A DNA stretch of 64,000 nt, from the NCBI GenBank assembly GCA_002356515.1, contig AP017605.1:6805020-6869019 (forward strand), given 5' to 3'. The translations under genes were made by a program, and so were the position numbers. Below are positions 40,206-54,645 of the stretch, piece by piece. The first letter of the stretch is position 1. Every line of letters starts with the position of its first letter. Under the pieces are notes generated by a model, which did no database searches, was not told the DNA's origin, and worked only from the letters and a program-made list of their open reading frames with translations. The DNA is from Mesorhizobium loti (lineage in GTDB: Bacteria; Pseudomonadota; Alphaproteobacteria; Rhizobiales; Rhizobiaceae).

Positions 40206-40628
40206 ATGAACACGACACTTGAAACAACGGCAAATCCCTTGCCGCAAGACCTCACATTTCTCGGCGAACAGCTGACGGCATTCAACGACGGCGATGTCGG
40301 CGCATCGGAAAGAAAGGCGCTCGCTGTGTTCGTGCGCGACGAGAATGGCGCGGTCGTTGCCGGCATTTCGGGCTACACCGCCTGGGGCTGGCTCTACGTG
40401 CAGTGGCTGTGGGTCGATGAAAGGCTGCGCGGCCAGCATATGGCGGGCCGGATGCTGGACGCCGCCGAGCGGGAAGCCGTGGCGCGCGGCTGCAACAACG
40501 CCTGGATCGACACCTTCAGTCCCAGCGCCGCCAAGGTCTACCAGCGCCAGGGTTATGTGCCCTTCGGCACGCTGGCCGATTTCCCCGTCGGTCGCAGCCG
40601 CATCTTCCTGCAGAAGAAACTGACTTAA
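40206..40628 (+). CDS. GNAT-family N-acetyltransferase
   Basis: A 140-residue acetyltransferase with the GNAT core: strand/loop [44 protein letters not shown], where the RGQHMAG segment is the acetyl-CoA pyrophosphate loop (Q/R-x-x-G-x-G/A type). It ends with [15 protein letters not shown] and the family-typical [13 protein letters not shown]. Substrate unknown. It stands alone on the plus strand between dctD and the convergent anmK, whose stop codon it overlaps by 4 bp. Confidence 0.85.
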
Positions 40629-41740
40629 CCGGCGAGCTTTCCGCCGCGCATCGGCTGCGGCGCGCCGGTGGTGCTTGGAAAACTGATCGGCAGGCCGCGC
40701 AACACGCGCACCGCTAGGAAGGCAAAACACTCGGCTTCCACCGCATCGCCGCTCCAGCCGAGGCTTTCGGCCTGCACCACCTCGACGCCGGCGCGGCTGG
40801 CCAGCATTGCCATCATTGTCGGGTTGTGGCGGCCGCCGCCGCTGACCACCAGCTTTTTCGGCCGGGTCGGCAAAAGGTCGAGCGCCTTGCCGACGGCGCC
40901 GGCGGTGAAGGCGGTTAGCAGGGCCGCGCCATCCTCGGCGTCGAGGCCATCGGCCATCGCGGCGCCGAAGTCGAAACGGTCCAGTGATTTGGGGTAGGGC
41001 TTGCTGAGATAGGGATGCTGTAGCAGCTTGGCGAGCCTTGCCTCGTCGACCGTTCCCGCGCGGCCAAGCGCGCCGTCGCGGTCCATGTCGCCGAGGCCCT
41101 TCGACTTGATGAAATCGTTGAGCGGCGCGTTGGCGGGGCCGGTGTCGAAGGCAACGACATTGTCGGCGCCATCCCACCAGGTGACATTGGCGACACCGCC
41201 GAGATTGAGCACTGCCACTTCGCCGCTGGCGCCGGCGCTGCGCATCAGCGCGGTGTGATAGGCGGCGGCCAGGGGCGCGCCTTGCCCGCCGGCGCGCATG
41301 TCGGCCGAGCGGAAATCATAGGCGACCTTGGTGCCCAACAGGGAATGCATCAGCTCGCCGTCGCCGAGCTGCCGCGTCTGGCCGAGCCGTCCGACCTGCG
41401 GCGCGCGATGCAGCACGGTCTGGCCGTGAAAGCCGACGACGCCGATATCGGCCATCGTCATGCTGTAGCCTTCGACCAATTCCTTCACCGCCGCCGACTG
41501 GGCACGCGTCAGCGCTTCCTCGGCCTTGCGGAAGATCGCCGGTTCCGGCCCGACAAAATTCCAGGCCCTTGCAGCCGTCAGCGTCTCTTCCAGCAGCGAG
41601 CGGATCGATTGGGGATATGGCATCAGCCGGTAGGTGCCGAAATCCTCGATCCGCTCGCCATCGGTCTTGATCAGCGCGACGTCGATATTGCCGTCAAGCA
41701 CCGTGCCGGTCATCAGGCCGACGGCCCAGATTGGTTCCAT
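40625..41740 (-). CDS. anmK: Anhydro-N-acetylmuramic acid kinase
   Basis: A 371-residue AnmK, the normal length. It hydrolyses the 1,6-anhydro bond of anhydro-MurNAc and phosphorylates it to MurNAc-6-phosphate, the MurQ substrate. The ATP-site motif [44 protein letters not shown], the catalytic Asp region [14 protein letters not shown], and the adenine-site [14 protein letters not shown] are all intact. The start is ATG 41740; the frame stays open upstream, but into the serine hydrolase gene. It is the last gene of the muropeptide operon, 4 bp after the serine hydrolase. Confidence 0.94.
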
Positions 41741-41744
41741 TGTC

Positions 41745-42749
41745 CTAGTCCCCGTTGATGAGATCGCCGACCGTCTGCCGCAGAGAGATGATCCCGCTGT
41801 CGAAATGACGTGTCGGATGGATCCGGTTGGTGAGCAAGGTCCAGGCCTTGCCCTTGTCGAAATCGATCCACAGGCCGGTGCCGGTAAAGCCGGTGTGGCC
41901 GATGGTTCCCGGGCCGCACAATGAACCACCCGACCAGCCAGCATAGGGACGTTCCCAGCCATGGGTGCGGGTCGCGGACAAGGGCGTGCGCATCAGCGCG
42001 ATCGAACGTTCGGATGCGCCGCTGCCGGTCAGCAGCCCTTGCGCGAAATCCAGCACCGAATCCGCCGTGCCGAACAGGCCGGCATGACCGGCGCCCTGCA
42101 ACGCCGAGCAATTGTCGTCATGCACTTCGCCGGACAGAACGCGGTGACGCCAGGTGCAGTCCTCGGTCGCCGCGGCAACATCCGGCTCTGTCCCCCAGGC
42201 AAATCCGGGACCGGGGTCCATGTCGCGGATGGTCTTGCTCGACAGCCGCTCGAGCGCAAAGCCGAGCAGGATGAAATTGATGTCGGAGTAGACGGGGTCG
42301 CGGGCCTGCCATTCGCGCTGCAGGATGAAGGCGCGCAGCAGCTCGGGGTCGCGTCCGTAAGTGTAGATCGGCTCGACGGCGGGGAAGGGCGTCTGATGGC
42401 CGAGGCACTGGCGAAACGTCACCTTCCGCTCCCAGGCCTGTTGATCGTACTGGCGAAGGTCCGGCAGCACCGAAATCAGCGGCGCATCGAGATCGATGAC
42501 GCCATCCTCCGCCAAGGCCAGGATGCGCGGCGTGGTGAAGATGATTTTGGTCAGCGACGCCAGGTCGAACCAGGTTTCGGCGGTCATCGGCCGCTGCTTG
42601 GGCACAAGTTGCGCAGAGCCGATTGCCCTGGTGATGCGGTGGCCATTGCTGTCGACAATGCCGAGCACGCCGCCGGGAATGCGGCCCTCTACTACCGCTG
42701 CTTCCAGCGGTTGGAATGCTCGGTCGAAGAGCTGGGCGAGGTCGCTCAA
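41745..42749 (-). CDS. Beta-lactamase/penicillin-binding-protein-like serine hydrolase
   Basis: A 334-residue class-C-beta-lactamase-fold hydrolase. The nucleophile motif SxxK is in [13 protein letters not shown] (about 64-74). The YxN-type motif is [12 protein letters not shown], with Asp in place of Asn as in many esterase-like members, and [12 protein letters not shown] near the C-terminus carries the HxG third motif. No signal peptide is seen, so it is probably cytoplasmic. The start is TTG 42749, six bases after GGAGG; the frame stays open upstream only through the palindromic element. In E. coli the murQP operon carries yfeW, another member of this superfamily, so a peptide- or ester-trimming role on muropeptides is a reasonable inference. 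Confidence 0.85.
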
Positions 42750-42784
42750 TGCCAGCCTCCATCTGACAGGCGTGGATCCGTCAC

Positions 42785-42939
42785 ACCCCCCTCTGTCCTG
42801 CCGGACATCTCCCCCGCAAGGGGGGAGATTGGCAGTATTGATGTTCCGCCAACCCTCCAACGTTGGAGATTGGCGAAAGTCGCGACGGCATCCGATCTCC
42901 CCCCTTGCGGGGGAGATGCCCGGCAGGGCAGAGGGGGGT
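42785..42939. repeat. Large GC-rich palindromic element inside the muropeptide operon
   Basis: Two 45-nt arms (42785-42829 and 42895-42939) are inverted repeats with only two mismatches. Each contains its own hairpin (CTCCCCC-GCAA-GGGGGGAG). The centre holds a perfect CTCCAACGTTGGAG palindrome (42855-42868) flanked by CGCCAA/TTGGCG. It fills the 223-bp gap between the ABC ATPase gene and the serine hydrolase gene and would fold strongly in the mRNA. It is a cousin of the element at 16934 in style, not in sequence. Confidence 0.85.
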
Positions 42940-42972
42940 GCTGTCCCGCCAACCTCGGATATCCCAGGGCCA

Positions 42973-44721
42973 TCACGCTTCCACCCTCGCCATATGATCC
43001 CGGCCAAACTGCTCCCACCGCGCCGGCGCCGGCTCGAACCCCTGCGGGCGCACAAGCGAGGGCACCTGGCGTGTGTCGATCTCGAAATGCTCGCGCCGCC
43101 GGTCGATGGTCGGAACGGCGGCGATGAGTTTCTTCGTATAGGAATGCTTCGGCCTCGACAGCACCGATGCCGCGTCGCCGATTTCGACGATCTGGCCGGC
43201 ATAGATGACGGCGATGCGGTGCGCGATCCGCTCGACCACCGCCATGTCATGCGAGATGAAGAGATAGGCGAGCCCAAAGTCGCGCTGCAGGTCGACCAGC
43301 AGCTCCAGCACCTTGGCCTGCACCGAGACATCGAGCGCCGACACCGCTTCATCGAGAACGACCACGGACGGGTTGAGCATCAGCGCACGGGCAATGCACA
43401 GCCTTTGCCGCTGGCCGCCGGAGAATTCATGGGGATAGCGCTGCAAGCTATTCGCAGGCAGGCCGACGCGTTCCAGCAGGCTCGCCATTCTGGCCCGCGT
43501 CTCGGCATCCACGCGGCCGCCGGTGGCGATCACCGGCTCGGCCAGGATGCTCTCGATGCTGAGCCTCGGATTGAGCGAGGCATTGGGGTTCTGGAACACC
43601 ATCTGCACGGGCTTGGCGCTTTGCTCGGCTGAGGCCTTTCGGGCGCCGACCGAGAAACTGCCGCGCGTCGAGCGCACCAGGCCGAGCACCGCCTTTGCGG
43701 TTGTCGATTTGCCCGAACCGCTCTCGCCGACGATGGCCAGCGTCTCGCCCGGCATCAGGTCGAAGTCGATGCCGTCGACCGCGTGCACCGCGCCGGTGGC
43801 GCGGCTGAAGAAATTGCTTTTGAGAGGAAACCGCACCACGAGGCCGTCGACCCTCAAGGCCGGTTCCTTGCTTGCGCCCTTGTCGCGTCGTCCGTCCGCG
43901 CGTGTCGCGCTTCCCCTGGCGAAATGCGGCACGGCGTGCAGCAGATGCTGCGTGTAGAGGTGCTGCGGCCTGTCGAGGATCTGGTTCAGTTCGCCTTGCT
44001 CCACGGCCTGCCCGTCCTGCATCACCATCACCTTGTCGGCGATGCCGGCAACCAGGCCGATATCGTGGGTGATGAAGATCATTGACATGCCGGTCTCGCG
44101 CTTCAATTCGGCCAGCAGCGCCATGATCTGCGCCTGCACGGTGACGTCGAGCGCGGTGGTCGGCTCGTCGGCGATCAGCAGGCGCGGATTGCAGGCGAGT
44201 GCGATCGCGATCATCACCCTTTGCAGCATGCCGCCCGAGAGCTGGTTGGGCGTGTATTTCAGCCGCCGCGCGGCATCGGGAATGCGCACGCGATCGAGCG
44301 CATCCTTGGCCGCCGCCGTGGCCTGTCGGCCGGTCAGGCCGCGATGCAGCCGGAAGGATTCCTCGATCTGCGAACCGATGGTCAGCACCGGATTGAGCGA
44401 GGTCATCGGCTCCTGGAAGATCATGCCGATCTCGGCGCCGCGAATGCCGCGCAGCTGCGGTTCAGTGGCGCCCATCAGGTCGAAGATGGTCCCATCGGCC
44501 CGCTTCAGCTGCATCGAGCCGCCGGTGATGCGGCCGCCGCCGAAATCGATGAGCCGGTTGATCGACAGCGCGGTGACGGATTTGCCCGAGCCGCTTTCGC
44601 CGACAATGGCCAGTGTCTCGCCATCGGCGAGGTCGAAGCTGACGCCGCGCACCACTTCATTGGCTTGGCGGTCGCGGCCGAAGCCGACGCGAAGATCCCG
44701 AATGGACAGCAGCGGGCTCAT
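42973..44721 (-). CDS. Peptide-type ABC transporter, fused double ATP-binding protein
   Basis: A 582-residue protein containing two complete ATPase domains of the DppD and DppF types, as in GsiA and YejF. Domain 1 (about 1-260): Walker A GESGSGKSVTAL, signature LSGGMLQRVMIA, Walker B LLIADEPTTALDVTVQ. Domain 2 (about 290-560): Walker A GESGSGKSTTAKAV, signature FSGGQRQRLCIARAL, Walker B VVVLDEAVSALDVSVQ. In domain 2 the residues after the Walker B Glu are AVSALD rather than PTSALD, a common variant. It powers the two permeases encoded next to it (4-bp overlap) and belongs to the muropeptide operon. Confidence 0.93.
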   Translation of the reverse strand: MSPLLSIRDLRVGFGRDRQANEVVRGVSFDLADGETLAIVGESGSGKSVTALSINRLIDFGGGRITGGSMQLKRADGTIFDLMGATEPQLRGIRGAEIGMIFQEPMTSLNPVLTIGSQIEESFRLHRGLTGRQATAAAKDALDRVRIPDAARRLKYTPNQLSGGMLQRVMIAIALACNPRLLIADEPTTALDVTVQAQIMALLAELKRETGMSMIFITHDIGLVAGIADKVMVMQDGQAVEQGELNQILDRPQHLYTQHLLHAVPHFARGSATRADGRRDKGASKEPALRVDGLVVRFPLKSNFFSRATGAVHAVDGIDFDLMPGETLAIVGESGSGKSTTAKAVLGLVRSTRGSFSVGARKASAEQSAKPVQMVFQNPNASLNPRLSIESILAEPVIATGGRVDAETRARMASLLERVGLPANSLQRYPHEFSGGQRQRLCIARALMLNPSVVVLDEAVSALDVSVQAKVLELLVDLQRDFGLAYLFISHDMAVVERIAHRIAVIYAGQIVEIGDAASVLSRPKHSYTKKLIAAVPTIDRRREHFEIDTRQVPSLVRPQGFEPAPARWEQFGRDHMARVEA

Positions 44722-45560
44722 GCCGTCGCCCTCCGCATCCTCGGGTCGAGGATATCGCGCAAAGCGTCACCCAGCAGGTTGAAGCCGAGGATGCTGATCA
44801 TGATGGTCAGCCCCGGAAAGATCATCAGCCAGGGCGCTGTCTCCATCAGATTGCGGCTGTCGCTCAGCATCAGCCCCAGCGAGGCGGCGGGCGGCTGCGT
44901 GCCGAGGCCAAGGAAGCTCAAGCCGGCTTCGGTGAGCAGCGCCCAGGCCAGCGCCAGCGTCACCTGCACGGTCAGCGGCGCCACCAGATTGAGCAGCAGA
45001 TGGCGCGTGACGATGTAGCTCGAACTGCTGCCGAAGGTGCGCGCCGCGTCGACGAATTCACGCGCCTTGAGCGAAAGGGCAGGGCCGCGCACCACGCGGG
45101 TGAAGATCGGCGTGTAGACGATGCCGATGGCGATAACGCTGGTCCATGTGCCCGGTCCCGCGACGGTGACGATGAGCAGCGCCAGCAGGATGGCCGGAAA
45201 GGCCAGCAGCACATCCATGATGCGCATCACCACGCCATCCCAGCGGCGTCCGAGCCAGGCGGCCGCCAGCCCGAGCACGGTGCCGGCAAGGGTGGCGAAG
45301 GCCACAGAGAAGAAGGCGACCGTGAAGGATTGCCCGATGCCGGCCATCAGCCGGCTGGCCACGTCGCGGCCGAACAGATCGGTGCCCATCCAGTAGGCGC
45401 CGTTGGGCGCGTGCAGCCGGTCGATGCGGAACTGCGTGATCGGATTGTGCGGCGTGAGCCCAACCAGGCCGAGGATGGCGATCAGCAAATAGACGCCGAC
45501 GATGACACCGCCGATGCGGCCGCTGCCATGGCCGAAGATGGCGCGCAGGATGCGCATCAC
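44718..45560 (-). CDS. Peptide-type ABC transporter permease (DppC-like)
   Basis: A 280-residue permease with an N-terminal span (about 15-35) followed by a periplasmic segment HNPITQFRIDRLHAPNGAYWMGTDLFGRDVASRLM, the hallmark of the DppC/OppC group (GTDxxGRDV). The coupling loop is REFVDAARTFGSSSSYIVTRHLLLNLVAPL. It overlaps both the ATPase gene and the DppB-like gene by 4 bp. It forms the inner-membrane channel of the importer. Confidence 0.92.
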   Translation of the reverse strand: MMRILRAIFGHGSGRIGGVIVGVYLLIAILGLVGLTPHNPITQFRIDRLHAPNGAYWMGTDLFGRDVASRLMAGIGQSFTVAFFSVAFATLAGTVLGLAAAWLGRRWDGVVMRIMDVLLAFPAILLALLIVTVAGPGTWTSVIAIGIVYTPIFTRVVRGPALSLKAREFVDAARTFGSSSSYIVTRHLLLNLVAPLTVQVTLALAWALLTEAGLSFLGLGTQPPAASLGLMLSDSRNLMETAPWLMIFPGLTIMISILGFNLLGDALRDILDPRMRRATA

Positions 45561-46516
45561 TGCTCTCCCAGCCGGATGCGCGGATCGAGCCCGACATAGG
45601 CGAGGTCGACCAGGAGATTGACGATCATGAAGTTGAAGGCGATGAACAGCACGGCGCCCTGCACCAGCGCGTAGTCGCGCTGCAGGATCGCGTCGAGCAC
45701 CATGCGCCCGAGGCCGGGCAAGGCATAGATCTGCTCGACGATGACGGCGCCGCCCAGGAGATAGCCAAACTCGATGCCGCTCAACGTCACCACCGGGATC
45801 AGCGCATTGGGGAGCGCATGCCGCCAGACGACGCTGCGCGCCGACGCGCCCTTGCTGCGCGCGGTGCGCACATAATCGTCGCTCAAAACGTCGAGCATCG
45901 CCGAGCGCGATATGCGCGTGACCGACGCGGCGAAAGCAAAGCCGAGCGTGATGGCGGGCAGGATCAGCTGGCTGAGATTGCGCAAGGGATCCTGCCAGAG
46001 CGGCGCGAATTCGCCCATCGCCGGCAGCACGCCGAAGCCGGCCGACAGCGTGTAGATGATCAGGAGGCCGAGCACGAAGCTCGGCGTCGACTGGCCGATC
46101 ATGGCGACGATGCGCACCCCGAGATCGGACGGTTTTTCGTTGTGAGTAGCGGCGTAGATGCCGGCCGGCATGCCGACGGCAAGCGCGATGATCATCGACA
46201 GCAGAGCCAACTCCAGCGTCAGCGGGAAGCGTTCAAGGATGACGTCGAGCACCGGCCTGCCATAGGTCACGGAGATGCCGAAATTGCCGTGCAGGATGCC
46301 GCCGATCCAGCGCCAGTACTGGACGAACCAGGGCTGGTCGATGCCGAAATAGGCGGCGAGCGAATCCCGTTGTGCCGGCGTCAGCAGGCCGGCTTCGGTG
46401 CCGAGCATTGCCGTGATCGAATCGCCAGGCACCATCCGGATCGCCACGAAGACCAGGATGGACACGCCAAGCAGGACGAGAGGAAACGTTGCCAGTCGTC
46501 GCATCAGATAGTTCAC
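45557..46516 (-). CDS. Peptide-type ABC transporter permease (DppB-like)
   Basis: A 319-residue permease starting MRRLATFPLVLLGVSILVFVAIRMVPGDS, the standard DppB/OppB N-terminus. It has about six spans and the coupling loop DDYVRTARSKGASARSVVWRHALPNALIPV (about 225-254), which fits the family EAA motif closely. It pairs with the DppC-like protein. The binding-protein gene is 34 bp upstream. Confidence 0.93.
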   Translation of the reverse strand: MNYLMRRLATFPLVLLGVSILVFVAIRMVPGDSITAMLGTEAGLLTPAQRDSLAAYFGIDQPWFVQYWRWIGGILHGNFGISVTYGRPVLDVILERFPLTLELALLSMIIALAVGMPAGIYAATHNEKPSDLGVRIVAMIGQSTPSFVLGLLIIYTLSAGFGVLPAMGEFAPLWQDPLRNLSQLILPAITLGFAFAASVTRISRSAMLDVLSDDYVRTARSKGASARSVVWRHALPNALIPVVTLSGIEFGYLLGGAVIVEQIYALPGLGRMVLDAILQRDYALVQGAVLFIAFNFMIVNLLVDLAYVGLDPRIRLGEQ

Positions 46517-46550
46517 GCGAAGAAGTCCTCTCGTCCGATGCCTGTGCCGG

Positions 46551-48068
46551 CTACTGCTGGATGGTAACCTTGCTCAAGCTGAACAGCGTGCCGGTCGGCG
46601 TCGGCACGAAGCCGGCGATGTTCTTCTGCTGTGCCGTATAGCTGTAGGAGGTGTAGAGCCAGATCCACGGCGACATCTCGGCGAGGTGCTTTTCGAATTC
46701 GGCGAAGATCGCCTTGCGTTTGGCCGGGTCGGTCTCGGCGCGGCCCTGCTGCATCTGGCTGTCCAGCGTGTCGTCGATGTAGTTGGCCACCTTCTGCAGA
46801 TTGCCTGCCTTGGTCCAGTAGCGGTTGTACATGGTGTAGGGGTCGGCGCGGCCGCCATTGAGCGCGATCGCCATGTCGAAATCGCCCTTCAGCCAGGCAT
46901 CGACATAGACGTTGAGCTCCATCATCTTGATGTCGAGCTTGACGCCGATTTCAGCGAGCTGCGACTGGATGACCTGGGCTTCCGCGGCCGCCGTCGGCGG
47001 CTCGCCGGTGGCGCCGATCACCGTCGCCGAAAAGCCATCGGCAAAGCCGGCCTCAGCCATCAGCTTCTTGGCCTTTTCGACATCGCGCTTGTAGCAGAAC
47101 AGCTGGCTCGGATCGGTCGCCAGTGCCGGTATGGTCAGCGGTCCCGTAACCTTGCCTTCGCCGAGCGAGGCAGTGTCCAGCACTTCCTGCCGGTCGATGG
47201 CGCAGGAGATCGCCTGGCGCACCTTGAGCTCGGTCATCGGCTTGCGCGACGGGTTGAGCTGCAGCACGTGATAGGAGAGCACAGGCACGCGGTTCAGCTG
47301 GAGGCTGGCCTCCTTCGGCACCAGCGTGGCGACCAGCGGATCATTGAGCAGCGCGAAATCGATCTGCTTGGTGCGCATGGCGGCAAGGATCGCCGCTTCG
47401 TCCGGCAGCACGCTGATCTCGATGCCGTCCACACCGGTCGCGCCGCCGGCCCAGTCCTTATTGGCGCTCAAGACTTCCTTGGCGTTGGGGTCCCATTTGT
47501 CGAGCTTGAACGGGCCCGAGCCGACCGCCTTGGTGCCGACCGAGCCGGCCTTGATTTCGGCCGCCGGGACGATCGCCGCATTGACGTCGCTCATCGCCGT
47601 CAGGATCGGCACGTCGGGCTGCGACAGATGGAACACGACAGTCGCCGCATCGGGCGTGTCGATGCCGGCGGTCGACAGGAAATTGGCGCGGGCGGCCGCC
47701 CCCGTCTTCTCGTCGAGAATGCGCTCGAACGAGGCCTTGACGTCGGCTGGGGTGACGGCCGTGCCGTCCTGGAACTTCGCCTTGGGGTCGAGCTTGAAGG
47801 TCAGTTCCTTGCCATCCTTGGAGAACTCCCAGGATGTGGCGATTGCCGGGATGATCTGCAGGCTGGCATCGACCCGCACCAACGGTTCATAGATCAGTTC
47901 CAGGAGCCGCAGCGACGAAAAGGCCGTCTGCTTGTGCGGGTCAAGCCCGGTTGCGTCCTGCGACCAGGCCATGTGCAACGTCGCCGCCTGCGTCGAAACC
48001 ACACCCACGCCGAGCATCGCGACAACCGTGATGCCCGACAGCAGTGTTCTTGTGAGATGCCCTATCAT
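46551..48068 (-). CDS. Peptide-type ABC transporter substrate-binding protein (SBP_bac_5)
   Basis: A 505-residue periplasmic binding protein of the DppA/OppA family. The Sec signal is about residues 1-29 (RTLLSGITVVAMLGVGVVS, cleavage after TQA). The mature part begins TLHMAWSQDATGLDPHKQTAFSSLRLLELIYEPLV and has the usual ATSWEFSKDGKELTFKLDPKAKFQDGTAVTPADVKASFERI. Members bind peptides, glutathione, nickel chelates or sugar-peptide conjugates. The operon context (murQ, anmK, murA) points to muropeptides or anhydro-MurNAc-type ligands. Confidence 0.9.
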   Translation of the reverse strand: MIGHLTRTLLSGITVVAMLGVGVVSTQAATLHMAWSQDATGLDPHKQTAFSSLRLLELIYEPLVRVDASLQIIPAIATSWEFSKDGKELTFKLDPKAKFQDGTAVTPADVKASFERILDEKTGAAARANFLSTAGIDTPDAATVVFHLSQPDVPILTAMSDVNAAIVPAAEIKAGSVGTKAVGSGPFKLDKWDPNAKEVLSANKDWAGGATGVDGIEISVLPDEAAILAAMRTKQIDFALLNDPLVATLVPKEASLQLNRVPVLSYHVLQLNPSRKPMTELKVRQAISCAIDRQEVLDTASLGEGKVTGPLTIPALATDPSQLFCYKRDVEKAKKLMAEAGFADGFSATVIGATGEPPTAAAEAQVIQSQLAEIGVKLDIKMMELNVYVDAWLKGDFDMAIALNGGRADPYTMYNRYWTKAGNLQKVANYIDDTLDSQMQQGRAETDPAKRKAIFAEFEKHLAEMSPWIWLYTSYSYTAQQKNIAGFVPTPTGTLFSLSKVTIQQ

Positions 48069-48159
48069 TTTCGTCTCCCATTATGATTTGACTTGATGCC
48101 TTGCAGTTCTGCCGACCGCTTCCAAGGCACACATGCTTCGGAGTATCGGCCCAGTCTAT

Positions 48160-48230
48160 GCGGCTTCGCGCCGTCTTGTCTAAAGCGGCCTCTTGCCGTT
48201 TTGTCCCGGGCGGCTTCATGCCGTCCTGTC
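48160..48230 (-). repeat. Three tandem 25-bp repeats at the 3' end of murQ
   Basis: Copies start at exactly 48160, 48185 and 48210. Each is a 21-nt unit of the form GCGGCYTCNNGCCGTYYTGTC separated by 4 nt, and each contains a short hairpin (CGGC-loop-GCCG). The first copy in transcription order overlaps the murQ stop codon (48216-48218); the other two are in the gap before the binding-protein gene. They may form an RNA structure between murQ and the transporter genes. Confidence 0.75.
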
Positions 48231-49160
48231 GCTGATTGCCTTTCGCAGGAAGCCTCCAGCCTTGCCGAGGGCAGCCCGCGCCGTCTCGGTATCGAGGCCG
48301 GTGATCGTCACCAGGATCGCCAGCTTCACGTCATTGCTTGTCTGGTGGAGTGCCTGCCTGGCCTGCTGCGCCGAACAGCCGGTGGTCTGCATGACGATCC
48401 TTGTTGCCCTCGCCACCAGCTTCTTGTTGGACGGGTTGAGGTCGACCATCAGATTTTGAAAACTCTTACCGATGCGGATCATCGAGGCGGTGGTCAGCAT
48501 GTTGAGCACCAGCTTCTGCGCCGTCCCAGACTTCAGCCGGGTCGAGCCGGTGAGCACCTCAGGCCCTACGACGGGCGAGATGGCGATGTCGGCGATGCCG
48601 GCAATGGTCGACGCCGGATTGCAGGACAGGGCAACCGTGGTGGCACCCACCTGCTTGGCATAGTTCAGTCCGCCGATGACATAAGGCGTGCGCCCGCTGA
48701 CCGCGATGCCGACCACCACGTCGTTCGGTGTTAGTCCGATCTCCTGCAGCGCCCTGGCGCCCATTTTCCGATCATCCTCGGCGCCTTCCGTCGACCTTAC
48801 CAGCGCGTCCGAACCGCCGGCGATCAGGCCGATCACCATGTCCTCGGGCACGCCGAAAGTGGGCGGGCATTCCGAAGCGTCGAGAACGCCGAGCCGCCCG
48901 CTGGTGCCGGCGCCGATATAGATCAACCGCGCGCCTTTCTGGAAGGCAAGCACGATGCGGTCGACCGCAGCCGCGATCTCCGGCAGCACCTTTTCGACGG
49001 CAGCCGGGACAAGCCTGTCCTCGTCATTGATCTTGCGCAGCACGTCGATGGTCGGCAGCAGGTCGATATCCATCGTCCGCGGGTTGCGGCCTTCGGAAAC
49101 CAGCAGGTCCAGCTCAGACATCAACCCTTGCTCGGTCATTCCAGTGCTTTCAAAAATCAT
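48216..49160 (-). CDS. murQ: N-acetylmuramic acid 6-phosphate etherase
   Basis: A 314-residue SIS-domain lyase that splits MurNAc-6-phosphate into GlcNAc-6-phosphate and D-lactate. The phosphate-sugar loop [22 protein letters not shown] (about 82-103) contains the conserved catalytic Glu, and a second conserved acidic motif STEGAEDD is at about 123-130. The C-terminal helical UBA-like region ([22 protein letters not shown]) is also typical. The start may be ATG 49160 or ATG 49139 ([10 protein letters not shown]); the frame is open further upstream but crosses the operator at 49272. A copy of the RpiR-type operator lies about 110 bp upstream, so murQ probably has its own promoter within the operon. 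Confidence 0.94.
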
Positions 49161-49265
49161 GCTGCCCGGACGGCTCAACGGGCACCAGGGCATACGGACC
49201 TTGGGTCCGTCATCGCAATTTTTCTTTGTTAACTTTTTAGAATTGGATATTCGTATCGTCAACAG

Positions 49266-49287
49266 GAAATTGGAATATTTTATTCCT
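49266..49287. promoter_or_regulatory. RpiR/MurR-type operator upstream of murQ
   Basis: A 22-bp sequence identical to 51542-51563. Its core GGAATATTTTATTCC (49272-49286) is a perfect palindrome (GGAATA-TTT-TATTCC). It lies in the gap between the kinase stop (49295) and the murQ start. The only other copy I found is in the promoter gap of the RpiR gene itself. Confidence 0.8.
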
Positions 49288-49294
49288 GCCTCTG

Positions 49295-50179
49295 CTAAGC
49301 CTGCCGTGCACAGAGCGACCGCTTGGCGAGGATGATCGCGCCGGACACGGCGTCGCCGTCGGCGGGCTTCAGGCGGCGCCTGACATCGGGCGAAAGCCAG
49401 GGTTCGAGCGGGCTGGCGAGGCCGCCCAGCAAGGTTACGCGCGGCGCGCCTTTCTCGAACAGCACCCGCACCAGCGTGTCGATCTGCTCGGCGGCACTTT
49501 GCACGATGCGCCGTCCGGCCGGGTCGCCCTGGTCGGCATGGCGCATCACCATCGGCGCCAGCGCCGCGTAATCCGTGGCGCTGGCGCGGTCCATCCAGGC
49601 GACCGCCTCCATCGGATCACCCTCGAAGCGCTGCATCACCTCCGCCAGCAGCGCCGTCCGCTCGTGCCGGCCGTCATGGCCGCGCAGAGCCAGCTGTACC
49701 GCCTTCAGGCCAAGATCGGCGCCGCTGCCTTCGTCGGAAATCGGAAAACCGTAGCCGCCGACGCGCAAATCGCGGCCTTCAGCGAAGCCAAGGCCGATCG
49801 AACCGGTGCCGGCAATGACGATGGCACCATCCTGACCGGAATGGGCGCCCAGGCAGGCGCCGACGCCGTCGCTGACGAAATCGATGCTGGCAAAGGGATG
49901 CGCGATCGCCCGCAACGCTTCCAGCGCACCCTTGCGGCCGATGCCGGCAAGGCCGATGCCGGCGCGAATCCGGGCGGTCTCAGCTGGCCCGAACCCCGTC
50001 TCCTCGATCGCCGCGCCAAAGGCTTTGGCAATCGAGGCCCAAGCCGTGTCGATGCCGAGCCGCGTTGTCGCCGGGCCGGACAGGCCTTGTCCCAGCACGT
50101 TGCCTTCCGCGTCCTCGATGCGAGCCCGGCAGCCGGTGCCGCCGCCATCGACGCCGAGAAAATAGTCCGGGCCGCTCAT
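49295..50179 (-). CDS. BadF/BadG-type ATPase, probable N-acetylglucosamine kinase
   Basis: A 294-residue ASKHA-fold kinase. Phosphate-1 motif [18 protein letters not shown] (about 6-23), [28 protein letters not shown], and [20 protein letters not shown] (the region typical of the eukaryotic-NAGK/BadF-like group). It should phosphorylate an amino sugar, most simply GlcNAc to GlcNAc-6-phosphate, or MurNAc. In this operon it would serve the sugar released with MurNAc from muropeptides. ATG 50179 overlaps the murA stop as ATGA; an in-frame start 10 codons earlier lies inside murA. Confidence 0.85.
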
Positions 50180-51432
50180 GGGCTCAGCCGCTCGATATCG
50201 GCGCCGCAAAGACGCAGCTTGCGGTCCAGCTTCTCATAGCCGCGGTCGAGGTGATAGACGCGGTTGATGATCGTCTCGCCCTCGCTGACCAGTGCCGCCA
50301 GCACCAGCGACACCGAAGCGCGCAGATCGGTGGCCATCACCTGCGCGCCATGCAGTTTTTCGCCGCCGCGCACCAGCGCCATGGTGCCCTGCAGCTTGAT
50401 GTTGGCGCCGAGCCGCATCAGTTCCGGCACATGCATGAAGCGGTTCTCGAAGATGGTTTCGCGCAGCAGCGACGCGCCGTCAGCGCAACACATCAGCGCC
50501 ATGAACTGCGCCTGCAGGTCGGTCGGAAACCCCGGATAGGGTTCGGTCGTGAGATCGACCGCCTTGAGCGGCCGCTCGCGAGACACGATCAATCCGCGAT
50601 CTCCAGGCCAGACGCTGACGCCGGTGGCCTCCAGCAATTGCACGACAGAAGCCATGTGTTCGAGCCGGGCATGCGTCAGTTCAAGCTGACCGCCGGTGAT
50701 CGCCGCGGCAATCGCATAGGTGCCGGCCTCAATCCGGTCCGGGATGATGTCGTGCCGAGCCGCGTGCCATCTGGTGCCGCCGGCGATCAGGATGCGGTGC
50801 GTGCCGGCGCCCTCGATGCGCGCGCCCATCGCGTTGAGGCAAGCGGCGAGATCGGCCACTTCCGGCTCGCGCGCCGCGTTGAGGATTTCTGTTTCGCCTT
50901 TGGCCGTGGTCGCCGCCATCATGGCGGTCTCCGTTGCCCCGACCGATGGCGAACTGAGCACGATGCGGGTGCCGGTTAGCCCGTTTGGCGCCGAGGCGAC
51001 GATCAGGCCATTCTCGATGGCGATGCGGGCGCCAAGTGCCGCGAGGGCGGAGACATGCATGTCGACCGGCCGCGCGCCGATGGCGCAGCCGCCGGGCAGC
51101 GAAACGCGGGCATGGCCGAACCGGGCGAGCAGCGGCGCCAGAACCAGCACCGTTGCGCGCATTTTGCGCACCGTGTCATAAGACGTTTCCTTCGACACGG
51201 CGGCACTGGTGTCGATCGTCGCGGCATGGGCCGACCGCGTCACCTCGGCGCCATGAAGCCGCACCACGCCGAGCATGTTTTCGACATCGGTCACATCTGG
51301 CAGATTGGTCAGTTCGAGCGGGTAGGGGCTGAGCAGGGCGGCCGCGATCTGCGGCAAGGCAGCGTTCTTGGCGCCGGATATGGTGACCGCGCCTTCCAGT
51401 CTACGCCCGCCGACGATCCGCAATCTGTCCAT
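50176..51432 (-). CDS. murA: UDP-N-acetylglucosamine 1-carboxyvinyltransferase (MurA paralogue)
   Basis: A 418-residue MurA with a full active site: Lys22 in SGAKNAALP, the fosfomycin-target Cys116 in [14 protein letters not shown], Arg/Asp in [14 protein letters not shown], the general-base Asp region [10 protein letters not shown], and [14 protein letters not shown] with the conserved Arg. It transfers enolpyruvate from PEP to UDP-GlcNAc, the first committed step of peptidoglycan synthesis. Its place as first gene of a recycling operon, behind an RpiR regulator, suggests a second copy beside a housekeeping murA elsewhere; the window cannot show that. ATGA overlap with the kinase. Confidence 0.93.
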
Positions 51433-51541
51433 GGCTGAACCCTTGTCTGGCGAAAGCCGGGCGGCGGTCTCTCCGGGAGAGCCATTCGATTCCCAAGCCT
51501 GGCCAGTTCGAGAATTAATTCTGCGTTCTTGGCTGTCAATC

Positions 51542-51563
51542 GAAATTGGAATATTTTATTCCT
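51542..51563. promoter_or_regulatory. RpiR/MurR-type operator in the regulator-murA gap
   Basis: The second copy of the 22-bp site, with core GGAATATTTTATTCC at 51548-51562. It lies 30 bp before the RpiR start (51592) and about 115 bp before the murA start (51432), in an otherwise AT-richer divergent promoter region that also holds GAATTAATTC at 51513-51522. Fits autoregulation plus control of the operon. Confidence 0.8.
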
Positions 51564-51591
51564 ATAAGCATCGAAGCGCGCCAGAGGGTTC

Positions 51592-52452
51592 ATGTCCGTT
51601 CTCAAGCAGATCCATGCGAAGCTCGACGGCATGGCGCCCGGCGATCGCGAGATCGGCCAGTACATCGTCGACAATCCCGACCAGATGCTGCGCCTGTCGA
51701 CGGCAGCCCTTGCCGCCGAGATCGGCCGCAGCCAGTCGAGTGTCGTCAAGTTCAGCCAGAAACTCGGCTATGCCAGCTACCAGGAACTCAAGCTCGCCGT
51801 CAGCGAGGCCAAGGCGCAGGCCTGGCAGGTGCCGGCCGGCGTCATCCACGGCTCGATCGAGGTCGGCGACACCTACCCGGTCATCCTGAAGAAGCTGATC
51901 GGCAGCAAGCTTCTGTCGATGCAGCAGACCGTCGCCGCCAACACTGAGCGCATCATCGGCCGCACGCTGGAGCTGCTGGATGGCGCGCGCCGCATCCATC
52001 TGGTCGGCGTCGGCGCCTCCTCGCTGGTGGCGCGCGATTTCTCCTACAAGCTGATGAAGCTCGGCCGTAATGTGCTGCACGACAGCGACAGCCACATCCA
52101 GATGGCCAATGCCGCGACGCTCGGGCCCGGCGACGTGCTGTTCGCGCTGTCCTATTCCGGCGCCAGCATCGAAACTTTGCGCATCGCCGAGCTTGCCCGC
52201 AAGCGCGGCACGATGGTGATCGCCGTCACCGGCCTGCACGACAATCCGCTGAGCCGCGTCGCCGACATCCGCCTCTTCACCACCGCCGACGAGGAGCGTG
52301 CGCGCTCCTCGTCCATCACCGCGCGCGACGCGCAGCTGACGCTGACCGACCTTTTGTTCATTCTGCTGGTGCAGAAGCAGCCGGACGCCAACGACTATGT
52401 CCACAACAGCGAGGCGGCGGTCTCCGTGCTGAAGGCCGAGCGGTCCTCGTAG
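51592..52452 (+). CDS. RpiR-family regulator (MurR-like)
   Basis: A 286-residue regulator. The N-terminal RpiR helix-turn-helix (about 1-78) has LSTAALAAEIGRSQSSVVKFSQKLGYASYQELKLAV. The C-terminal SIS domain (about 125-255) has HLVGVGASSLVARDFSYKLMKLGR and ALSYSGASIETLRIAELARKRGTMVIAVT, and binds a phosphosugar. E. coli MurR, which senses MurNAc-6-phosphate and represses murQP, has the same build. Here it is divergent from the murA-to-anmK operon, and identical palindromic sites lie in its own promoter region and before murQ. Ligand inferred: MurNAc-6-phosphate or GlcNAc-6-phosphate. Confidence 0.9.
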   Translation: MSVLKQIHAKLDGMAPGDREIGQYIVDNPDQMLRLSTAALAAEIGRSQSSVVKFSQKLGYASYQELKLAVSEAKAQAWQVPAGVIHGSIEVGDTYPVILKKLIGSKLLSMQQTVAANTERIIGRTLELLDGARRIHLVGVGASSLVARDFSYKLMKLGRNVLHDSDSHIQMANAATLGPGDVLFALSYSGASIETLRIAELARKRGTMVIAVTGLHDNPLSRVADIRLFTTADEERARSSSITARDAQLTLTDLLFILLVQKQPDANDYVHNSEAAVSVLKAERSS

Positions 52453-52455
52453 GCG

Positions 52456-54645
52456 TTACCAAGTCGTGTGCATCTTCAGCTTGAACGAGCGGCCTTCGCC
52501 GTAGGAGCAGGTCAGCGTCGTCTGGCAACTGGCGACATAGGTCTTGTTGAACAGATTGGTGACGTTGAGATCGACGCCCCAATTCTCCTTCTCGTAGCCG
52601 AGTTTCAGATCGGCGAGCGTGACGGCCGGCACCTTCGCCGTGTTCTCGTTGTCGGCCCATGAGGAGCCAATGTAGCGCAGGCCACCGCCGACCGAGATGC
52701 CGTCATACCAGTCGCCGCGGAACGTGTAGTCGACCGAGGCCGAGGCCATAACCTCCGGCGCGATGAAGGGTGTCTTGCCGATCAGCGCCGGATTGGCATC
52801 CTTAGTGATTTCGAGATTGTAGGCCGTGAATGCGCCCGAAATCCGGAAATCATCCGTCACATTGACCTTGCCTTCGAGTTCAACGCCGCGCGAGCGTACT
52901 TCGCCGGTCTGCATCTGTGTGAAGAGCGTGACGTTCGAGGGCACGTTCTGGCGCGTCAGGTCAAACAGCGACACGGTGAACAGGCCATCGACAAAGGTCG
53001 GCACATACTTCACGCCGACTTCATATTGCGTACCCTCTTCGGGCTTGAACAGATTGCCGATCGCGTCGGTGCCGATGATCGGATTGAAGAAGGTTGCGAT
53101 GCTGGCATAGGGGGTTACGCCGTTGGCGAACTCATAGGCGAGGCCGGCGCGGCCGGAGAAGTCGCCGACGGTTTGGCTCTGCGTGCTGGAACTCGCCGAG
53201 TAATAGGTCGGACGATTATCGGCGTCGAGCCAGCCACGGTCGTAGCGGCCGTTCAGCGTCACCAGCCAGCCATCGCCGAAGCGCAGCTGGTCCTGCGCAT
53301 AGAAGCCGAGCTGCTGCTGGGTCAGGTTCTGGCTGAGATAGCTGACGCGTGGCGTCAGCGGCGATCCGTATACCGGATGGAAGGCATCAATGGGATTGTC
53401 GTAGTTGGGATCGTAGAGACCAGAGGACTGCACCTGATCGATGTTGTAGTACTTGAAGTCCAGACCGGCGAGGATCGTGTGCTCGATTGGACCGGTCGTC
53501 ACCTTGCCCTCGATCTGGTTGTCGAGAAGGAAGGTCTTTGCCGTGGTGTCGTGGTCGAAATTTATTCGCGCCAGGTCGGTAGGCCCGCCGGTGAGCGACC
53601 AGCCGTTCGGATAGACACTGACCTCATTGATATCGGCGGCGGTGAAGCGGGCGTTGGAACGAACCGTCCAATCATTGTCCAATTCGTGTTCGAACTCGTA
53701 CCCGATCGAGCCCTGTTCGCGCTTGTAGAGATCGATGCTCGGTTCGGTGAAATTCGCATCGGGGTCGATGCGGCCGTAGTTTACGCCGCCGACTATGTGG
53801 TCCGTTACCGTGCCGTCATAGGGCAAAAAGCTGCCGCCATTGTGGTTCTCGTCGATGTGGCTGTAATTGGCCAGGATGGTCAGCGTGGTCGCTTCGTCCG
53901 GCTTCCAGCTGATGCTGGGCGAGATGAAGCCGCGCCAGCCGTTCTGGAAGTCGCTGTAGGTGTCGCCGCCGGCGATCTTGCCATTGATGCGGTAGCTGAC
54001 CGTGCCGTTGCTGGCCACGTCGCCAATGTCGAAGCCGAGATAGACATTGCCGGCATCGTTGACGCCGGTCTCGACAGTGCGCTTACGTTCGAGCTCCGGC
54101 CGCTTGCTGACATAGTTGACCAGCCCGCCGGGATTGCTGCCGCCATAGAGTACGGAAGCCGGGCCCTTCAGCACCTCGATGCGCTCGAGCCCGAAACTGT
54201 CGACATAAAAGCCGCCGAAGCCATAGCTGAACAGCTGCAACCCATCCATGTAGGTGCCGGTGGCGGTCGCCTGGAAACCACGGATGAACAGCCAGTTGGT
54301 GTCGCTGTCCGGGCCGAAGGGCTGGGCGAAGACGCCGGCGGTATAGCGCAGGGCCTCATCCACCTTCTGCGCGCCCTGGTCGTCGATCTCCTGCCGGCCG
54401 ACCACGGAGACGGATTGCGGGATGTCCTTGATGTCGGTTGCCGTCTTGGAGCCGGTCGTGGTCTTCTTGGCGACGACACCTTCGACCGGGTCGGTCGCGC
54501 TGCCGCCAGCCTCGCCCTCGACCACGACAGGCTCAAGCTGGGTGCCGGCAGGTGCCGTTTGAGCAAAGGCGTCGATCGGCGGGATCATCGCGACGGCGGC
54601 GACACTGGCCGCCAGAAGCGCCTTCATCCGGTAAAGTCTGCTCAT
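52456..54645 (-). CDS. TonB-dependent siderophore receptor (FhuA/FoxA/FpvA type)
   Basis: A 729-residue outer-membrane receptor. The signal peptide is about 1-28 (LLAASVAAVAMIPPIDAFA). A TonB-box-like LEPVVVEGE follows, then the plug domain (about 60-165; KDIPQSVSVVGRQEIDDQGAQKVDEALRYTAGV, FIRGFQATATGTYMDGL, IEVLKGPASVLYGGSNPGGLVNYVSKRP), then a 22-strand barrel ending in ...FKLKMHTTW with the terminal aromatic. Plug motifs are those of ferric-hydroxamate or mixed siderophore receptors. ATG 54645 is used; GTG 54660 is possible. No import ABC genes adjoin. Two overlapping TGA-N9-TCA sites precede it, consistent with iron control. Confidence 0.92.
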   Translation of the reverse strand: MSRLYRMKALLAASVAAVAMIPPIDAFAQTAPAGTQLEPVVVEGEAGGSATDPVEGVVAKKTTTGSKTATDIKDIPQSVSVVGRQEIDDQGAQKVDEALRYTAGVFAQPFGPDSDTNWLFIRGFQATATGTYMDGLQLFSYGFGGFYVDSFGLERIEVLKGPASVLYGGSNPGGLVNYVSKRPELERKRTVETGVNDAGNVYLGFDIGDVASNGTVSYRINGKIAGGDTYSDFQNGWRGFISPSISWKPDEATTLTILANYSHIDENHNGGSFLPYDGTVTDHIVGGVNYGRIDPDANFTEPSIDLYKREQGSIGYEFEHELDNDWTVRSNARFTAADINEVSVYPNGWSLTGGPTDLARINFDHDTTAKTFLLDNQIEGKVTTGPIEHTILAGLDFKYYNIDQVQSSGLYDPNYDNPIDAFHPVYGSPLTPRVSYLSQNLTQQQLGFYAQDQLRFGDGWLVTLNGRYDRGWLDADNRPTYYSASSSTQSQTVGDFSGRAGLAYEFANGVTPYASIATFFNPIIGTDAIGNLFKPEEGTQYEVGVKYVPTFVDGLFTVSLFDLTRQNVPSNVTLFTQMQTGEVRSRGVELEGKVNVTDDFRISGAFTAYNLEITKDANPALIGKTPFIAPEVMASASVDYTFRGDWYDGISVGGGLRYIGSSWADNENTAKVPAVTLADLKLGYEKENWGVDLNVTNLFNKTYVASCQTTLTCSYGEGRSFKLKMHTTW

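Follow-up and report, generated by a model that had tools for sequence, protein, structure and literature searches.

The subject of this report is a gene cluster of Mesorhizobium loti (contig AP017605.1; genome size 8.45 Mb) that occupies positions 40625..52452 of a 64,000-nucleotide stretch, referred to below as the ‘window’, and that consists of nine minus-strand genes and one divergent regulator gene. Judged from their sequences, these genes probably constitute a regulon for the salvage of muropeptides, arranged as two transcription units that a MurR-like protein would control by way of short palindromic sequences (‘boxes’). Included in it is a MurA isozyme, here called MurA2, that would be co-induced and would rebuild uridine diphosphate N-acetylmuramic acid (UDP-MurNAc). 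The first unit would comprise murA2 and badF, the latter a gene for an amino-sugar kinase. The second would comprise murQ, followed by the genes for a solute-binding protein, two permeases and an ATPase of an ATP-binding cassette (ABC) importer, a hydrolase gene and, finally, anmK. The first-pass annotation of this DNA had proposed a salvage set for muropeptides or MurNAc with a peptide-type ABC importer, a MurR-like regulator and a MurA paralogue, and this is supported by the family matches of the proteins and by the structural match of the regulator's SIS domain.

A common palindrome at two predicted promoters

Alignment of the gap between the regulator gene, rpiR, and murA2 from 12 loci revealed the palindrome GGAATANNNTATTCC. 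Two perfect copies are present in the window (at 51548 and 49272), none was found in 100 shuffles, and the whole genome holds the same two only, one before murA2-badF and the other before murQ. The first (‘box 1’; 51548..51562) lies in the intergenic region between murA2 and rpiR; the second (49272..49286) is box 1 of the predicted murQ promoter. Box 1 is followed by TTGAC, and then by a degenerate second box between the -35 and the -10. At murQ, on the minus strand, these are a -35-like TTGACG (49257..49262), the TTGAC of which is conserved in the stack of promoters; the second box (49239..49253), which occurs 33 bp after the start of box 1 and has the consensus gGAATATcCAATTCT in 53 promoters; and a -10-like TAAAAA (49234..49239), with a spacer of 17 bp. 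At murA2, also on the minus strand, a stack of 43 promoters displays a -35-like TTGACA (51534..51539) and, again 33 bp after box 1, a weak half-box with a conserved GAA core (51515..51529). The second box is clear at murQ, and is just a half-site at murA2.

Seventeen genomes, picked for carrying this locus, were searched for the box. Fifteen have at least one perfect copy. They hold 23 such sites in all, of which 21 precede murA2 or murQ; for one genome, G017, the box was placed with respect to a murA2 start deduced from an incomplete stretch. The remaining two, in G199 and G175, fall within long reading frames away from the locus, and were judged to be chance occurrences. The reversed pattern, used as a control, has a single site in the same 17 genomes. 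When up to one mismatch is allowed, the region before murA2 contains a box in 45 of 49 loci (37 of them perfect), the misses being L183, which is cut by a contig edge, and three loci of the genus g115, which have a different layout. For murQ, 53 of the 54 loci that possess the binding-protein gene as well have a box upstream (39 of these boxes are perfect; the miss is L085), as does one of the nine murQ loci that lack the binding-protein gene (L078, where the regulator is present). None of the six murQ-anmK loci among these nine has a box. Among the loci tabulated for these counts, murA2 and badF are never separate at 55% identity.

In two genomes, G080 and G175, the part of the locus with murA2-badF and rpiR is separated from the murQ part, by 23 kb and 20 kb, respectively. 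Both halves bear boxes nevertheless: perfect ones in G080, and in G175 a perfect one at murA2 and one with a single mismatch at murQ. Of all the evidence, this argues most strongly that murA2 is a member of the regulon and not a mere neighbour. The predicted operator is short, and is perfect just twice in the genome.

The nine same-strand genes had earlier been taken for a single co-transcribed operon within one regulon. The regulon stands, and the common box at both promoters carries it beyond adjacency; the single operon gives way to what looks like two promoters and two units, since murQ has a box-bearing predicted promoter of its own and the genes are thus probably divided into two transcription units. 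Terminator-like sites between 40400 and 52600 are no commoner than in shuffles.

The regulator and its predicted mode of action

The regulator gene (51592..52452, plus strand) encodes a protein of the RpiR/MurR type with HTH_6 and SIS domains. The top solved-structure match of the SIS domain is a MurR, 7en6 (125.5 bits), which we take to be the MurR of Escherichia coli. With a divergent MurR/RpiR-type gene and a conserved palindrome, a predicted site, at the murQ promoter, the locus resembles in these features a MurR-murQ divergon. The MurR of E. coli acts as a repressor of the murQ operon when MurNAc-6-phosphate is absent, as described in the excerpt of PMC5061867. Repression is also the mode that fits better here. 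Box 1 is upstream of the -35 and was considered as a possible activator site; this was set aside after the degenerate second box was found in the -35/-10 spacer, a position over the promoter that suits a repressor better. The protein may instead act as an activator, in the way put forward for NanR of pneumococci in the excerpt of PMC12713135.

The pathway that we propose runs as follows. The MurR-like protein would control both units through box 1 and the weaker second copy at each promoter, and a sugar phosphate, probably MurNAc-6-phosphate, would bind it and lift repression. The ABC importer would take up (anhydro)muropeptides, the cytoplasmic serine hydrolase would trim their peptide, and AnmK and the BadF kinase would phosphorylate (anhydro)MurNAc and N-acetylglucosamine (GlcNAc). 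MurQ would cleave MurNAc-6-phosphate to GlcNAc-6-phosphate and D-lactate; NagA and Glm enzymes, encoded elsewhere, would form UDP-GlcNAc; and MurA2, made upon salvage induction, would restore the ether-linked carbon unit toward UDP-MurNAc.

MurA2 and its association with badF and murQ

The product of murA2 (50176..51432, minus strand) scores 541.9 bits against the MurA equivalog model TIGR01072 (cut-off 392.7), and has the catalytic residues of that enzyme. Ten active-site residues, which we take to be K22, N23, R91, C115, R120, D305, R331, D369, R371 and R397, are kept in all 20 aligned MurA2 rows (two pairs of which are identical), in all three g115 rows and in all eight from the order sample; the housekeeping MurA likewise retains the ten. 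In both trees that we built, MurA2 is a separate paralogue clade. The first, made by a quick method with 10 of 75 sequences omitted to thin the set, has MurA2 and the g115 sequences on one side of a branch with a Shimodaira–Hasegawa-like approximate likelihood-ratio (SH-aLRT) support of 99, and the family's housekeeping MurA apart (100). The second, from which three very distant rows were taken out and to which eight members from the order sample were added, again unites all 27 MurA2 and g115 rows to one side of a branch, with a support of 100. A MurA match in G581 (58%) falls outside the clade and has neither badF nor murQ nearby; it was dropped. The gene is under purifying selection. Its ratio of nonsynonymous to synonymous substitution rates (dN/dS) is 0.06–0.08 versus four relatives, and is the lowest in three of the four comparisons among nine genes of the locus, murQ being left out.

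The MurA2 clade is present in 18 of the 247 genomes of the family sample: 14 have matches of at least 71%, in G196 the gene is split in two, and in three genomes of g115 it matches at 58–59%. All 14 with such a full-length match also carry a second MurA, 55–57% identical to MurA2 in the 10 for which it was listed. In the order sample (397 genomes), 14 pass a threshold of E 1e-145, and 13 of these are MurA2 by context, five of them already in the family sample; with this threshold, and with four scored candidates per genome, further MurA2 may be missed. The eight additional genomes, together with G010 and G017 from the sample of relatives, which were assigned by identity and are absent from the trees, bring the number with a MurA2-clade gene to 28.

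In every one of the 28, murA2 adjoins badF, and in 26 of them murQ is within ~3 kb of murA2; in the split genomes, G080 and G175, it is 20–23 kb off on the same contig. Outside the window's family (G352, G378, G411, G414 and G548) the layout is murA2-badF-murQ. Peptide-type ABC importer genes of lower similarity are near this trio in G352 and G548; G352 further has a frame for anmK and a regulator of the GntR/UTRA type, G548 has a PF00144 hydrolase frame, and G378 has a frame for a NamZ exo-muramidase ~1.3 kb from murA2. In g115, the cluster that contains murA2-badF also comprises nagA, a NagB-II-like gene and what by eye is a GntR-like gene; it faces a murQ, and has an oligopeptide-type ABC set nearby. 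A MurQ tree, which comes with a long-branch warning, puts these MurQs and that of the window on opposite sides of a 99-supported split, so that MurQs of two or more lineages have probably come to be combined with murA2-badF.

These associations bear on an alternative in which the locus is a catabolic carbon/nitrogen operon for muropeptides or amino-sugar conjugates, and MurA2 is a general backup MurA that acquired the shared promoter and plays no special part in salvage. MurQ would then feed the NagA/NagB-II-like route encoded elsewhere in the genome, and it suits this account that MurA2 is a second copy alongside another MurA in all 14 family-sample genomes with a full-length match of at least 71%, and that seven loci, described below, have the transport operon and no murA2. 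Constant adjacency to badF with murQ nearby, however, in at least three cluster layouts and with two MurQ lineages, goes beyond what would be expected of a backup gene, and we consider this alternative unlikely.

Other unusual MurA genes were encountered. A distant second MurA (37–39%) occurs in five genomes of the family (G229, at L167; G209, at L169; and those with L168, L170 and L171), and in the two that were aligned, L167 and L169, the active-site cysteine is an aspartate. At L195:7434–10046, in G231, a very divergent MurA-like gene (31–32%) directly adjoins anmK (62%); it is the only MurA-like match in that genome at E 1e-20, and differs at two of the ten catalytic positions in an uncertain alignment. 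G042 and G095, rated 99% and 90% complete, have no MurA match at E 1e-20, which may be a limit of the search.

The importer, and evidence that weighs against the proposal

The importer is encoded on the minus strand by four genes: a periplasmic solute-binding protein of the SBP_bac_5 family (46551..48068; PF00496, 284 bits) with a signal-peptide-like N-terminus (by eye); an Opp2B-like permease (45557..46516; NF045470, 330 bits, cut-off 350) and a NikC/Opp2C-like permease (44718..45560; NCBIfam and Pfam matches), both of the BPD family; and a double ATPase with two ABC_tran stretches and oligo_HPY (42973..44721). There is no gene for MurP, nor for any other phosphotransferase system (PTS) component, among the ten. 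The permease scores 114.5 bits against the YejB model, short of the cut-off of 445 for a YejB-type permease. The substrates of the importer would be muropeptides.

Alternatively, the importer might serve for ordinary peptides, opines or some other conjugate, and the recycling enzymes might be mere neighbours. The closest solved structure to the binding protein is AgaA (6hlx, 181 bits); the periplasmic murein peptide-binding protein 3o9p scores 82 bits, and every NCBIfam cut-off listed is missed. Against this, the four importer genes come directly after murQ and before the hydrolase gene and anmK in the binding-protein loci, contig-end cases and L046 excepted; the box precedes murQ in all but one of the 54 such loci; and peptide-type importer genes accompany murA2-badF-murQ in G352 and G548 as well. 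We regard an unrelated importer as distinctly improbable.

The closest structural match of the binding protein is one of several observations that count against a salvage regulon of the kind we propose. Some concern the proteins. The regulator scores 178.5 bits against the MurR equivalog model (cut-off 408). The BadF kinase belongs to the BadF superfamily and scores 260 bits of the 370 set for the NagK_SO3507 equivalog. The best NCBIfam match of the hydrolase, the PBP4B model, reaches 58.5 bits (cut-off 385). Others concern the promoters. Two of the 17 locus-bearing genomes, G117 and G259, have no perfect box; at the murA2 promoter both the second box and the -10 are weak; and a generic sigma-70 scan of 40400–52600 returned one promoter-like site, at neither box. 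Yet others concern the gene set. Mesorhizobium L046 has the full set through the ATPase gene, and no hydrolase gene or anmK in the next 4.7 kb. Seven of the loci that were fetched (L070, L077, L079, L085, L179, L182 and L185) have the murQ-to-anmK set without murA2 and badF, and the persistence there of the transport operon implies that MurA2 is not required for the pathway. The three of their genomes that are in the family sample, G158, G199 and G259, have no murA2 match elsewhere. Finally, genes resembling those of the MurU route are present in the M. loti genome, and could bypass MurA altogether.

Gene calls and conservation of the locus

All ten genes of the first-pass annotation were found as open frames at the positions given for them, and NCBIfam and Pfam agree with their names. 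AnmK (40625..41740; NF007141, 487 bits, cut-off 352) and MurQ (48216..49139, probable start; TIGR00274, 421.5 bits, cut-off 302), both on the minus strand, exceed the cut-offs of their equivalog models; the kinase, hydrolase, regulator, binding protein and permeases match their families without reaching the specific NCBIfam cut-offs. The NagK/MurK-like kinase gene, badF (49295..50179, minus strand; PF01869, 128.5 bits), starts with the ATG at 50179, which overlaps the murA2 stop (ATGA). Its product has as its top match in the PDB 1zc6, a ‘probable N-acetylglucosamine kinase’, and also matches the MurNAc/GlcNAc kinase 8zo3. For murQ, a TTG at 49262 had been called, inside what is now the -35 hexamer of the predicted promoter, and so the start is probably 49139 (or 49160). 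The NF009222 profile match (515.9 bits) begins at residue 42 of the longer frame. The serine hydrolase of the PBP4B/beta-lactamase superfamily (41745..42713, minus strand; PF00144, 114.8 bits) was translated from the aligned position, its start codon not being fixed, and no signal peptide is seen by eye in the N-termini of its relatives. Between the ATPase and hydrolase genes lies a palindromic interspersed repeat of ~157 bp (42784..42940), which matches its own reverse complement at 81%; further copies are present in the same genome (L193, L282), and it occupies the equivalent site in many, though not all, Mesorhizobium loci.

A MurQ scan of named genomes yielded 69 loci, with all of which the ten proteins of the window were compared. 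The same ten-gene order is found in Mesorhizobium, Phyllobacterium (L064), Paenochrobactrum (L067), Aminobacter (L071–L073 and L075) and some Brucella (L068, L069 and L099, the last partly in pieces); some loci are truncated where their contig ends. Conservation of synteny, proposed earlier as a check, thus extends well beyond the genus Mesorhizobium, which argues that the arrangement has not arisen by chance. Six loci (L059–L062, L074 and L184) are reduced to murQ-anmK; the box, regulator, importer, hydrolase, kinase and murA2 were not found in them at the thresholds used.

Known systems and the rest of the pathway

The E. coli murQ-murP-yfeW operon with its divergent murR (excerpt of PMC5061867) resembles the locus in having MurQ, a divergent RpiR-type repressor and a serine hydrolase of the PBP4B superfamily. 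It differs in having the PTS protein MurP where the locus has an ABC importer; the locus adds AnmK, a BadF kinase and MurA, has two box-bearing predicted promoters, and has a hydrolase in which no signal peptide is evident. The cluster murQ-murR-murP-amiE-nagZ-ybbC of Bacillus subtilis likewise brings together a MurNAc-6-phosphate etherase, a regulator of the MurR type and an amidase; unlike in the window, the amidase and NagZ are extracellular, the transporter is a PTS, and no murA is among the six genes as given in the same excerpt. In Agrobacterium, an AmpG-less rhizobial relative, YejBEF-YepA imports muropeptides by means of an ABC system (excerpt of PMC9790009), as the genes of the window predict for theirs; the window's permease falls short of the YejB cut-off, as given above, and Yej-type genes occur separately in the same genome. 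The MurU/AmgK route of Pseudomonas and Caulobacter (excerpt of PMC13046382) also salvages MurNAc to UDP-MurNAc. That route skips MurA, whereas the regulon proposed here would pass through MurQ and return through a MurA. Among the matches listed in the open-licence PubMed Central literature, none deals, by its title and the opening of its abstract, with a MurA linked to MurQ or with this operon.

AmpG was not detected in the M. loti genome by a search that did detect the E. coli control. Elsewhere in the genome are a YejB frame (541.5 bits, cut-off 445) and a YejF-like ATPase (775 bits, cut-off 834). An ABC set by the housekeeping murA (L194) was considered as YejBEF and rejected in favour of the higher-scoring Yej candidate at G000:C1:5054811. 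A gene for a TsaE-AmgK-like fusion has a MurU-like gene next to it; neither reaches its equivalog cut-off, the scores being 227.7 bits (cut-off 500) and 225.4 bits (cut-off 370), respectively. A second cluster (L193:5731–10719, on G000:C1) encodes NagA (303 bits, cut-off 226) and a NagB-II-like frame (294 bits, cut-off 430). The same cluster has a BadF kinase, a GntR-like gene (by eye), a divergent, 36%-identical MurQ of a kind common in the genus sample, and a sugar-type ABC set (by eye).

With Yej-type, AmgK/MurU-like, NagA and NagB-II-like genes at other places in the genome, the description of the locus as a ‘self-contained’ salvage set has to be given up. The suggestion that its importer replaces AmpG holds insofar as AmpG was not detected; given the Yej-type and AmgK/MurU-like genes, the importer looks more like an addition. 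There seem, from this gene content, to be two routes back from MurNAc-6-phosphate: a MurU shortcut, which skips MurA, and a MurQ detour, which needs it. A MurA that is made together with MurQ would fit this logic.

Implications

A wider reading, which we put forward tentatively and with slightly less than even confidence, is that MurA2 represents a salvage-dedicated class of MurA, made only during the recycling of wall fragments, and that murA2, the kinase gene and murQ form a conserved module that has been joined to varied importers and regulators within one alphaproteobacterial order. It is through MurA that peptidoglycan synthesis is entered. Were a second MurA switched on along with the enzyme that undoes the ether bond of its product, wall recycling would be coupled directly to wall building. 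If the reading is right, the flow of wall debris would determine how much the first committed step in the making of new wall can carry, and this could explain why a rhizobial genome keeps the MurQ route in addition to MurU-route-like genes.

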